Source of the DNA: Actinomycetota bacterium
Lineage (GTDB): Bacteria; Actinomycetota; Acidimicrobiia; Acidimicrobiales; Aldehydirespiratoraceae
Assembly: GCA_029979265.1 (NCBI GenBank)
Contig: JAPOHW010000007.1
Coordinates: forward strand, 57,211 to 121,210
Direction of reading: 5' to 3'
Length of the DNA: 64,000 nucleotides
A model generated the notes under the pieces. It was not told the origin of the DNA and made no database searches. It saw only the letters and a list, made by a program, of their open reading frames with translations. The position numbers were made by a program, and so were the translations under genes. Below, in pieces: positions 47,265-53,354 of the stretch; the stretch's first letter is position 1; every line of letters starts with the position of its first letter.

Positions 47265-48819
<1,555 letters not shown>

Positions 48820-48856
48820 GTCGATTTTCCTTGCAAGTGAGTCGGGGTGGATTCGT

Positions 48857-49792
48857 TCAGGCCTCGGGCGTGCCTTCGGCGTCGGCCGCAGGAGTGTCGT
48901 CGTCGACCGTTGCGACGGCGGCTTCTTCATCGGTCACGCCAGCATCCTCATCGGTCGCATCAGCAACGGCGGCGACCACGCGGGCCTCACGCTCGGCCGC
49001 CTCTGCTTCGGCCGCAGCCCGTGCCTCGGCTTGCTGTTCGGCAATCTCGGCCTCCTGCAGGGCATTCCGCTCCACGGGAGAATCACCCGCTGCCTCAGCT
49101 TTCTTCGACCGGATGAAACGGCCCTCGAGCACGGCGTCGGAGATCACCCGGCTCATGAGCTCACCGGCACGAATGGCGTCGTCGTTGCCGGGAATGGCGT
49201 AATCGACCAGATCCGGATCACAGTTGGTGTCGACGACCGCAACGATGGGGATACCGATCTTGCGAGCCTCGGTGACGGCGATGTACTCCTTCTTGGTGTC
49301 GAGCACGAAGACGGCGTCGGGAAGCTTCTGCATGTCGCGGATCCCGCCGAGGTTTCGCTCGAGCTTGGCCAGCTCCCGTCCGATGAGGAGGGCTTCCTTT
49401 TTGGGCATGGCCTCGAACTCGCCGGAGTCGCGCATACGGCGGTACTCCTGCATCTTCCCGACACGCTTGGAGATGGTCTGGAAGTTGGTGAGCATGCCAC
49501 CGAGCCAGCGCTCGTTGATGTACGGCATGTTGCAGCGCTCGGCGTACGACTGGATGGAGTCCTGGGCCTGCTTCTTGGTGCCGATGAACAACACGGTGCC
49601 GCCGTTGGCGACGAGATCGCGGACGAAAACGTACGACGCCTCGAGATGGTTCAGCGTCTGATGGAGGTCGACGATGTGGATGCCGGACCGCTCGCCGTGG
49701 ATGAACCGCTTCATCTTGGGGTTCCAACGGCGGGTCTGGTGACCGAAGTGAACGCCGGCCTCCAGGAGCTGCTTCATGGAGATGACTGCCAT
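48857..49792 (-). CDS. rpsB: 30S ribosomal protein S2
   Basis: Component of the small subunit, last to join. The 311-aa protein starts [31 protein letters not shown], then [29 protein letters not shown] and [27 protein letters not shown]. After residue 230 there is an 80-residue Ala/Glu-rich tail ([11 protein letters not shown]...) that is longer than E. coli S2 (241 aa) but seen in actinobacteria. The gene has its own promoter candidate at 49918. Confidence 0.97.
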
Positions 49793-49917
49793 GGTGATGT
49801 CTTTCCCGGTTGTGAACTCGAGCCGGACGAACGAAACGACCGGGACTGGCACGAGTACCGAATAGTCCACCGACACCCGTGCGGTGTCGCGTGGGATCTG
49901 GCTACAGACCGCTGCGC

Positions 49918-49923
49918 ATCATA
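49918..49923 (-). promoter_or_regulatory. -10 box candidate for the rpsB operon
   Basis: On the minus strand the hexamer TATGAT (5/6 to TATAAT) lies about 125 bases upstream of the rpsB start and after the stop of the lipase gene. No good -35 hexamer is seen at 17-18 bases upstream. Between it and the gene is a hairpin, CGACACC/GGTGTCG with a 5-base loop (49871-49889), which could be a leader structure. Confidence 0.4.
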
Positions 49924-49939
49924 GCGGGGCCGAGCAGGA

Positions 49940-51589
49940 TCAGGACGGGAGAACATCGCGTACGAGTACGCCGGCAGCGAGTGCGGTCTCTGCAAATGCA
50001 ATGGACTCGGGCACCACCAAGTCGAGCATCGCATCGGCGGCCCCACTGCATGCCGGAGGGAGACCTGCCAGAGCGAGTCGGACCTCTCGCTCTACCTCGG
50101 GCAAACCCACGATGTCACGGTGCGCGCCAACGGGATCCAGACCACCGACAACGACATGGCGCGCACCGGGTGCACCGGCGTGGGTTGCGGGAACAACCAC
50201 GTCGGCTCGCGATCCGATCGTCACGGCGTGGACCGACTCGGGGAACGCCACGTGCCTGGTGTCGCCGGCAAAGCCCGTTGCCGACAGATCTTCGACCACC
50301 GGGGCAACGAGCGCCATGTCGTGCCAACCGACGTCTTCGACGACCTCGGCCACGTACGAGCCCGCCATGGTGACCTCGAGTGCCTCGACGAGGTCGGCGA
50401 GCGGTGCGCCGGCGTGCGGCGACGCCAACGTGACGGCGATCCCGTAGGGAACGTCCTGCGCTGTTGCAGCGATCGCATGTCGAGCGATCAGTCCACCGAG
50501 ACTGTGGCCGAAGACATCGATCGGCACCCCTGGGTTGGCGGTGGACACTGCTCGCAAGGTTCGTGCGACCTGATCGATCTGCGGTTCGACATCACCCCGA
50601 GTGGTCGAGGCGTCGTACTCGGATCGCTGGATCGGCCAGTCACCGCCGCTGCCGGGTACCAGCCCACCGGCATAGCTGATGCGCCCGACGTCGTCGGGCC
50701 CGTAGCCGAGATCTCCGAGGTCGAGATCTGCCATGGCACTCGAGTCCGACGACGAGTCGAGCCCATCGATGACGATTGCGATGCGGCGCCCCAGCGGTCG
50801 AGCGGGAATGCCCGCCACCGCCGCGGAGGCAACCGTGCACTCGTCGGGGTCGAGAATCGACGCGAGTCCATTGATCATCCGGGCGGTGATGGTTGCCCTG
50901 TCGAGTCCTTCGGAGAGCGTGTCGCCGAGGTCGACGAGGTGAACGATCCCCTCCATGTGCTCGGTGAAGCTGTGCTCGATCCCGAAGAACGGCGAGATCG
51001 CTCCGACCGCTCCCCCAAGGGCACGGTCGACAAGGCCCCAGAACCCACTTCCGTCCGACACATGGTCGGCCAGGTGACGGCGCTCCTGTCGTTCGAGGAG
51101 TCTCAGCCACCGCCCGTCATCGTCGGTTTCGTGGGCCACGAGTCGCACCTCGAGTGTGCGCACTCCGAGGAGGGTGGTGGGGTCGACGTAGTCGCCATCG
51201 ACACGGGTACTGAAATGGAGTGGACCAGCGGTCGACCCGATCCGATCACCGACCTCCACCGGGTCACCGGTGGCGACAGCAACCAAGGACAACGGACCAT
51301 AGGAGGTTCGGAGACCGCCCTGGTGGAGGATCGTTACCCACGCTCGACCGGCAACCGGGCCTGCGAACACCACGAGACCCGGGCCAGCGGCGTCAACCCC
51401 GACTCCTGCCGTCGTGTCGTACTCGATCCCTCGATTCCCCTGGCCGTAGGTGGTCTCGGGCGCTCGGAACGGGTCGATGATCGGTGCATCAACCGGCGGA
51501 CGCAGCACCACTGTCTGCGCTGCAGCGGCAGGTGCGAGCGCCGTTGCGATCGCACCCATGGACACCAACAAGACGACGAACCGGCCCAC
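49940..51589 (-). CDS. Secreted fusion: degenerate M23 (LytM-like) domain plus alpha/beta-hydrolase
   Basis: A 549-aa exported protein with a signal peptide (cleavage likely after AAAA, residue 24). Residues 30-142 fold like an M23 peptidase (DPFRAPETTYGQGNRGIEYD, GDPVEVGDRIG, GPLHFSTRVDGDYVDP). However the metal ligand H of HxxxD is N52, its Asp is E56, and the HxH pair has become P-L-H125, so it should not be an active metalloprotease. From about residue 265 there is an alpha/beta-hydrolase with nucleophile S363 in GHSLGG and plausible D463 and H490. I infer a cell-wall-binding esterase or lipase. Mycobacteria carry an active-looking M23 gene at this locus. Confidence 0.82.
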   Translation of the reverse strand: MGRFVVLLVSMGAIATALAPAAAAQTVVLRPPVDAPIIDPFRAPETTYGQGNRGIEYDTTAGVGVDAAGPGLVVFAGPVAGRAWVTILHQGGLRTSYGPLSLVAVATGDPVEVGDRIGSTAGPLHFSTRVDGDYVDPTTLLGVRTLEVRLVAHETDDDGRWLRLLERQERRHLADHVSDGSGFWGLVDRALGGAVGAISPFFGIEHSFTEHMEGIVHLVDLGDTLSEGLDRATITARMINGLASILDPDECTVASAAVAGIPARPLGRRIAIVIDGLDSSSDSSAMADLDLGDLGYGPDDVGRISYAGGLVPGSGGDWPIQRSEYDASTTRGDVEPQIDQVARTLRAVSTANPGVPIDVFGHSLGGLIARHAIAATAQDVPYGIAVTLASPHAGAPLADLVEALEVTMAGSYVAEVVEDVGWHDMALVAPVVEDLSATGFAGDTRHVAFPESVHAVTIGSRADVVVPATHAGAPGARHVVVGGLDPVGAHRDIVGLPEVEREVRLALAGLPPACSGAADAMLDLVVPESIAFAETALAAGVLVRDVLPS

Positions 51590-51660
51590 GCACGTTCCCG
51601 ATCACGAGAGACTCGTGGGGGAAGTGGCGCGTCCGACGGGGACACCCCGATCGTAGCGAC

Positions 51661-52437
51661 TTAGGCGACGTCGCGTTCGGCGGCCAGCATCTTCGACCGA
51701 AGGTGCAGAACAGCCTTGGTGTGGATCTGACAGACCCGGCTCTCGGTCACGCCGAGAACTCGGCCGATCTCGGCGAGGGTCAGACCTTCGTAGTAGTAGA
51801 GCGTGAGCACGATCTTCTCTCGCTCGGGCATGCGGTTGATCGAGGCTGCGAGGATCTGTCGCATCTCCTCGACCTCGAAGGCGTCGGTTGGGCCGGCCCG
51901 TTGATCGGCGACGGTGTCACCAAGGGAGATGCCCTCACCCTGATCGCCGACCGACAGCATCTCGTCGAGCGCCGCCACGCCGACAAAACTGATCTGGCTG
52001 AGCATGGTTCGGAGTTGCTTCTCGGTGATCCCCATCTCCTCGGCCAACTCGGCGTCGGTTGCGGCACGGGAATGCTCCGCCTCGAGCTTGGCCATCGCCT
52101 GCTCGAGCTTGCGCGCCTTGGAACGTACCGAGCGGGGCACCCAATCGATCGAACGCAGTTCATCGAGGATTGCGCCTTTGATTCGGGCGATCGCGTAGGT
52201 CTCGAACTTGAAGCCACGCTCAGGATCGAACTTCTCGATCGCGTCGATCAGGCCGAACACACCGAAGCTGGCCAGGTCGGCTTGTTCAACGTTGCGAGGC
52301 AGGCCGACCCCGACTCGACCGGCCACGTACTTGACGAGCGGTGAATACTGCACGATCAGCCGATCGCGGGCGGTTTGCGAACGCGTTCGTATGAAGTCTG
52401 CCCAGAGGCTGTCGACGTCAACGGTTCGCTCGGGCAC
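51661..52437 (-). CDS. whiG: Sigma factor of the FliA/WhiG type (sigma-28 family)
   Basis: Group 3 sigma factor of 258 aa with all core regions: region 2 LIVQYSPLVKYVAGRVG, VEQADLASFGVFGLIDAIEKFDPERGFKFETYAIARIKGAILDELRS; region 3 with TDAELAEEMGI; region 4 MPEREKIVLTLYYYEGLTLAEIGRVLGVTESRVCQIHTKA. WhiG controls spore development in Streptomyces, FliA flagella in proteobacteria; here the target is unknown. The GTG start at 52437 matches the family length. In Streptomyces whiG also lies close to rpsB, so the context agrees. Confidence 0.88.
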   Translation of the reverse strand: MPERTVDVDSLWADFIRTRSQTARDRLIVQYSPLVKYVAGRVGVGLPRNVEQADLASFGVFGLIDAIEKFDPERGFKFETYAIARIKGAILDELRSIDWVPRSVRSKARKLEQAMAKLEAEHSRAATDAELAEEMGITEKQLRTMLSQISFVGVAALDEMLSVGDQGEGISLGDTVADQRAGPTDAFEVEEMRQILAASINRMPEREKIVLTLYYYEGLTLAEIGRVLGVTESRVCQIHTKAVLHLRSKMLAAERDVA

Positions 52438-52445
52438 GGTCGTTC

Positions 52446-53354
52446 CTAGGCGCGGGGGTGGGTCGATCGATGAACGTCTCGCAGGCGATCTCGGCTCACA
52501 CGGGTGTAGATCTGCGTCGTGGCGAGGTCGGCATGTCCGAGCATTTCCTGCACAGAGCGCAAATCGGCGCCACCATCCAAAAGATGAGTCGCAAACGTAT
52601 GTCGCAACGCATGAGGGTGCGTCGGCGCGACCGCCCGGCGGTCGATGATTCGCCTCACGTCGCGCGGCGAAAGTGGCCTCCCTGCGCGGTTGACGAAGAG
52701 CGCATCGCCCACATCTCGATCGATGGCGAGCAGTGGCCGGCCCTCGTGCAGCCAGCGATCTACTGCGAGCCGTGCGGCTTCGGAAACCGGCACGAGCCGC
52801 TCCTTGGCACCTTTCCCCCAGACCGAGACCGTGTCGGACGCGGTGGTGAAGCTGGCGGTCGTGAGGCCGCAAAGTTCGGAGACCCGCATCCCGCTTCCGT
52901 ACAGCAGTTCGACAACAGCTCGGTCACGGAGCTGAATCTCGGTGGGATCGGCCGCAACCTTGGCGTTGCCGCTGACAAGACCGTCGAGTTCGGCGGCGGT
53001 GAGCACTCGGGGCAATGTCGACGTGCCGCGAGGGGCGCTGAGGGTGGCACTCGGGTCGGTGTCGATGATGCCAACCCGGCGACACCAGTCGAAATACCGT
53101 CGGGTGACCGATGCCTTTCGAGCGATCGTGCGTTTCGCATAGCCGCGCTGATCGAGTTCGGCGAGGTAGCGGCGCAGGGTCCGCCGATCGACTGCGCGAG
53201 GACGGTCGACGCCACACTCGCCGAGCCAGCCGACCAACGCAGCGATGTCTCGGCGGTAGACCTCTCTGGTCGAGTTGGCGACACGAGTGAGCTGCGCAAT
53301 CCAGTCGTCGACTTGCCACCCGGCATCAGTGGCCGCCATGGGTACTTCGGCCAT
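52446..53354 (-). CDS. xerC: Tyrosine recombinase XerC-like
   Basis: Site-specific recombinase that resolves chromosome dimers at dif. The 302-aa protein has a SAM-like N-terminal core-binding domain ([30 protein letters not shown]) and a catalytic domain with R in [14 protein letters not shown] in [25 protein letters not shown] and [14 protein letters not shown] containing the H/H/Y set. It is in the standard position between dprA and whiG. The start is ATG 53354, with a second in-frame ATG five codons on. Confidence 0.93.

Follow-up and report, generated by a model that had tools for sequence, protein, structure and literature searches.

Gene and genomic context

The window analysed here is a stretch of 64,000 nucleotides from a member of the order Acidimicrobiales (Actinomycetota). 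Its reverse strand carries a gene of 549 codons with a GTG start, whose product is predicted to be a secreted fusion of a degenerate M23 (LytM-type) peptidase domain and an alpha/beta hydrolase. For comparison we used a set of 129 loci from 36 families (100 loci of the order plus 29 of the window's own family, together called order loci below), 30 aligned natural fusions (alignment A2) and 30 aligned hydrolase domains (alignment A3). The features of the locus are:

48857-49792, minus strand: rpsB (ribosomal protein S2; PF00318, E 7e-99), the next gene on the 3' side, 147 bp away
49940-51589, minus strand: whole gene, 549 aa, predicted secreted fusion of a degenerate M23 domain and an alpha/beta hydrolase (open reading frame, Pfam, structure model)
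50048-50800, minus strand: lipase-type alpha/beta hydrolase domain, residues 264-514 (DUF676; lipase folds at Z 17-19)
50120-50122, minus strand: triad His490, invariant in both 30-member alignments
50201-50203, minus strand: triad Asp463, invariant in both 30-member alignments
50501-50503, minus strand: nucleophile Ser363 (GHSLGG), invariant in both 30-member alignments
50810-51163, minus strand: helical linker, residues 143-260, poorly conserved (alignment, AlphaFold model)
51164-51502, minus strand: degenerate M23/LytM-fold domain, residues 30-142 (PF01551, E 8e-12; structural matches)
51215-51223, minus strand: P123-L124-H125 in place of HxH, catalytic first His gone, zinc-ligand His retained (alignment)
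51422-51436, minus strand: N52-R-G-I-E56 in place of HxGxD, zinc ligands 1 and 2 (alignment; N in 127 of 129 order loci)
51515-51589, minus strand: predicted Sec signal peptide, residues 1-25 (by eye, from the sequence and the secondary structure of the model)
51661-52422, minus strand: WhiG-type sigma factor gene, immediately upstream (NCBIfam WhiG equivalog)

The signal peptide comprises a hydrophobic helix (residues 2-17) followed by APAAAAQ, as read from the sequence and the AlphaFold model, in agreement with the secreted fusion proposed in the original prediction, and the protein is presumably exported. The upstream sigma factor scores 363 bits against a cut-off of 343 for the NCBIfam WhiG equivalog; the start of its gene is approximate, the mechanical open reading frame beginning at 52872. 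A promoter scan by consensus found no sigma-70-like site between 49700 and 51800, the one terminator-like site in the same region was not above chance level, and Rfam had no match anywhere in the window. Two long open reading frames on the plus strand (50120-51664, 514 aa, and 48392-49924, 510 aa) overlie the fusion gene and rpsB/tsf; neither has a Pfam match, and both look like artefacts of high GC content rather than genes.

A LytM fold with a degenerate peptidase site

Residues 52-137 match Peptidase_M23 (PF01551) with 45.6 bits (cut-off 28.7, E 8e-12). In an AlphaFold model built from the 30 natural fusions (mean pLDDT 82, both domains mostly about 90-98), residues 25-144 resemble LytM domains with Z scores of 17-20.5, the closest being Csd3 (Z 20.5), DipM (19.6) and EnvC (about 19), along with active M23 enzymes; structure prediction had been suggested as a check of this domain, and it returned the expected fold. 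The substitutions N52-x-x-x-E56 and P123-L124-H125 are present as originally quoted, and in addition the YxHL motif reads Y97-GPL with P99 at the His position, so that the third catalytic His is also absent. Of the residues found in active M23 enzymes only H125 is left, the other positions being occupied by N52, E56, P99 and P123. As far as can be read from these residues, the N-terminal LytM fold cannot work as a normal zinc endopeptidase. Its site nevertheless appears degenerate rather than erased, because H125 is retained and E56 is a conservative change, and weak metal binding through these two residues may persist.

The zinc ligands are lost throughout the order, not just in the window protein. 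Across the 129 order loci, ligand 1 is Asn in 127 and ligand 2 is Glu in 98 and Asp in 25; 126 loci lack the YxHL His, 126 lack the first HxH His and 117 retain the second. The columns G-N-R-G and Y57 are invariant in the 30 aligned fusions, and G-N-R-G is among the most conserved in the order-wide alignment. Between the window protein and a relative of 79% identity, dN/dS is about 0.16 for the M23 domain; because of this low ratio, the domain is under purifying selection, for something other than ordinary peptidase activity. Two further M23 proteins, encoded elsewhere in the same genome (L001, L002), retain every catalytic residue.

A lipase-type hydrolase with few free-standing relatives

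The linker is mostly modelled at pLDDT <55 over residues of about 144-210. Beyond it, Pfam detects a DUF676 serine esterase at residues 339-395 (23.5 bits, cut-off 20.3), and residues 264-516 of the model, whose fold had likewise been marked for checking, resemble lipases with Z scores of 17-19, the closest being Lip_vut1 (18.9), a Streptomyces lipase (18.6), B. subtilis LipA and CALB. The domain has the layout of lipase-type enzymes, a nucleophile elbow followed by Asp and then His on an alpha/beta hydrolase fold, and the full Ser/Asp/His set first noticed in the window protein (S363, D463, H490) is invariant in the 30 aligned fusions. Its dN/dS in the same pairwise comparison is about 0.14. 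The C-terminal domain is presumably an active hydrolase.

A profile of this domain gave 20 matches in 149 genomes of the phylum, nearly all within M23 fusions. The hydrolase is of a distinct subfamily that, in the genomes searched, is found almost only fused to an M23 domain. In a comparison with phage lysis esterases of the mycobacteriophage LysB kind, PHROGs contained no match to the hydrolase part at E values up to 1, an absence that is weak evidence, and the rest of the protein gave only weak matches to metallo-endopeptidases and tape-measure proteins.

Distribution and gene order in the Acidimicrobiales

Some part of the protein is matched in 50 of 51 genomes of the window's family, and of 198 genomes sampled across the order, 115 match the N-terminal domain strongly. 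A profile search of contigs with alignment A1 recovered 80 loci, a single-protein query none. Judged by the named records, the carriers are Acidimicrobiales that have not been cultured, among them Candidatus Microthrix and Ilumatobacteraceae MAGs. The place beside rpsB that had been proposed as conserved is indeed so: in 109 of the 129 order loci rpsB lies at most about 600 bp downstream on the same strand, and in ten others 1.2-2.2 kb downstream; the remaining 10 have no rpsB within the stretch covered, which in some cases is due to a contig end. Upstream, xerC and the WhiG-type sigma gene usually precede the M23 gene, giving a conserved order xerC - WhiG-type sigma - M23 gene - rpsB - tsf. 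In three loci of genera g5 and g7 (L012, L015, L023) the M23 reading frame continues beyond its usual end and overlaps the 5' end of rpsB, in a different frame, over ~100-420 nt; either the overlap is real or stop codons are scarce in this high-GC DNA.

A search for other proteins of the same architecture, as had been proposed, returned 56 hydrolase fusions among the order loci and more elsewhere in the phylum; the other 73 order loci encode the dead domain alone. These single-domain forms show that the dead domain has a function independent of the hydrolase. We also considered that the two parts might have been split between separate genes, and rejected this idea: the single-domain genomes of the family encode no separate close hydrolase. 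One locus (L019, genome G022) represents a visible intermediate, in which the dead M23 domain and the linker are joined to the extreme C-terminus and the hydrolase has been excised.

Relatives in other Actinomycetota and evolutionary history

The M23 gene Rv2891 of M. tuberculosis adjoins rpsB. It encodes one of three M23-domain proteins of this species, of which the study in question pursued only Rv0950c (PMC8594824). The original prediction had referred to a typical M23 gene beside rpsB in mycobacteria; an M23 gene with zinc ligands at rpsB is what we found outside the order, but "typical" holds only in part, as the catalytic His is mostly lost. In other families the rpsB-linked relatives retain GHRG[IV]D and the zinc ligands H, D, H, have W, F or P in place of the YxHL His, and often lack the first HxH His as well. 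The sampled genes that are divergent from rpsB, the arrangement of mycobacteria, read GHRGVDLA...LHWG, mostly with the YxHL His changed to P and the first HxH His to C. The domain of the order has lost a segment that the relatives bearing zinc ligands possess before HxH.

Fusions to the same hydrolase subfamily occur at rpsB in family f75 (L309, L311, L313-L317, L324) and in one f123 genome (L312). Further fusions, from family f67 (L178, L179, L182, L183, L185, L192, L305, L307, L308, L310), have intact zinc ligands H, D, H, and the stretches covered contain neither rpsB nor xerC nor a sigma gene; two Cys residues that bracket the hydrolase are common to them and to the group of the window protein. 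In nearly all fusions outside the order the zinc ligands are intact. L174, a relative with N at zinc ligand 1, is an exception. Site changes of other kinds are seen in four rpsB-linked loci of families f104 and f90 (L194, L339, L188, L327), with D as ligand 3 in two, A as ligand 2, and R as ligands 1 and 2; these changes suggest independent degeneration.

In the hydrolase tree the 56 sequences of the order group in one clade, next to but separate from M23-fused hydrolases of other families, and in the M23-domain tree, which is less resolved, the order again forms one clade (SH-aLRT 97). Both trees are unrooted, and counts of changes on them do not tell gain from loss. Because the hydrolase subfamily sits on M23 domains with zinc ligands in other families, the fusion probably predates the loss of the zinc site, and the simplest history would start from an old fusion; the ancestor of the order would then have lost the zinc site, and its descendants, repeatedly, the hydrolase.

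Gene loss within the genus

Five genomes of the window's own genus lack the fusion gene. Two of them (G037, locus L366, and G038, locus L370) share one junction directly after the sigma gene and keep a C-terminal remnant of ~60 codons, in G039 (L368) the first sigma-gene codons are joined directly to the last codons of the fusion gene, and in G042 (L365) and G044 (L367) the sigma gene and the fusion are both gone, with other breakpoints. This pattern suggests at least three separate deletions in the genus. Because close relatives have deleted it several times, the gene is dispensable and its function not essential. The upstream WhiG-type sigma gene was also lost in three of the five genomes. 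The last 25-60 codons of the fusion gene often remain beside rpsB in the deletion genomes, and this retained 3' end probably carries the promoter or leader of rpsB. A second rpsB, 53% identical, is found in G039 (L371, on contig C107), either a paralogue or a contaminating contig.

Possible function

We favour, with moderate confidence, a scheme in which the non-catalytic LytM module binds the cell wall or a partner and tethers an esterase to the envelope; wall binding and positioning of an esterase had also been put forward in the original prediction. The LytM-fold domain would use its old substrate groove to bind cell wall or a partner protein, the hydrolase of the fusions would be held at the envelope by this module, and the substrate of the tethered serine hydrolase would be a lipid or wall component that carries an ester. 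This explanation rests on the domains themselves, the lost peptidase residues, the invariant substituted site and triad, purifying selection, and the order-wide conservation beside rpsB. In E. coli the LytM groove of EnvC binds a helix of AmiB and frees the AmiB active site (PMC10268282), and other wall hydrolases are under the control of inactive LytM factors (PMC8416486); by analogy with these, the ligand of the conserved pocket is probably a wall element or a partner.

The same analogy yields the main rival, a regulator of the EnvC/NlpD/ActS kind whose LytM groove binds and activates a peptidoglycan amidase or gates the fused hydrolase, with that hydrolase as an often-lost accessory. Degenerate LytM domains of E. 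coli act as amidase activators, as EnvC does for AmiB (PMC10268282), the LytM domains of EnvC and DipM rank near the top of the structural matches, 73 loci conserve the dead domain without a hydrolase, and the window's own genome encodes one Amidase_3. However, EnvC/NlpD-type coiled coils or LysM domains were not found in the Pfam scan or the model, only a signal peptide preceding the domain, and 14 of 16 genomes of genus g2 have no Amidase_3 match even though every g2 genome carries the single-domain form. We regard this rival as doubtful, and a strict role as Amidase_3 activator for all members is unlikely given the g2 genomes. It also seems improbable that the reshaped N-R-G-x-E...H pocket is a new and conserved recognition site, which would respond to a signal from the wall or the divisome and so control the fused esterase, in a manner analogous to EnvC and its amidase.

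The original prediction itself had offered another scenario, namely that peptidase activity was lost at a conserved locus and an esterase recruited in its place. The conserved position, the lost M23 residues and the intact hydrolase of the window protein agree with such a replacement, but the wider comparison does not: the zinc site was lost throughout the order, 73 of the 129 order loci have the dead domain alone, and the same hydrolase sits on M23 domains with zinc ligands elsewhere, in some cases at rpsB itself (L309, L311-L317, L324). We therefore consider recruitment quite improbable and do not maintain that activity was replaced at this locus.

A domain that is still a metalloenzyme, in which N52, E56 and H125 would support altered chemistry, is very improbable. 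Glu or Asp at position 56 (123 of 129), His125 (117 of 129) and the nearly invariant N52 would suit this reading; both catalytic His are gone, however, the segment before HxH is deleted, and position 56 can also be A, T, K or Q and position 125 F, Y or Q. Least probable of all is a decaying leftover without function, for which the repeated gene deletion in the genus might be cited, but which is at odds with the dN/dS of the M23 domain, the order-wide invariance of G-N-R-G and the conservation of the domain on its own.

Significance and comparison with known systems

In this family a peptidase fold has probably lost its zinc site a single time, before the order diversified, and yet the substituted pocket has stayed nearly invariant with or without a lipase-like partner. 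The rpsB-linked genes offer a natural series for the passage from LytM peptidase to non-catalytic wall factor, from domains with zinc ligands and the catalytic His, through those with zinc ligands and without the catalytic His, to the Asn/Glu site. The host lineage consists mostly of Actinomycetota that have not been cultured, and little is known about their envelope biology.

Neither dead LytM domains nor secreted lipases are new in themselves. In the literature searched, which leaves most subscription journals outside, we found no paper on LytM pseudoenzymes, degenerate actinobacterial LytM domains or rpsB-whiG-peptidase loci, no description of a LytM-controlled lipid-ester hydrolase, and no account of the dedicated M23-hydrolase fusion, the order-wide N-R-G site or the rpsB-linked series of partial losses.

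With the M23 family (PF01551; LytM, ShyA, Csd3, lysostaphin) the N-terminal domain shares the profile, the fold and the second His of HxH, whereas ligands 1 and 2 are N and E, both catalytic His are lost and the loop before HxH is short. The LytM fold without catalytic residues is shared with EnvC, NlpD, ActS and DipM, the export of our protein being predicted; unlike these, it has no coiled coil or LysM domain, carries a fused hydrolase and is encoded next to rpsB in an actinobacterial order. The hydrolase has the fold (Z 17-19) and the Ser-Asp-His triad of bacterial lipases and DUF676/palmitoyl-thioesterase-like alpha/beta hydrolases (Lip_vut1, Streptomyces 5h6g, LipA, CALB), but is only about 14-22% identical to them in structural alignment. 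The rpsB-linked M23 proteins of other Actinomycetota have the same fold and neighbourhood as the gene in the window; in contrast to it, they keep H, D, H, are often divergent from rpsB and are mostly without the hydrolase.
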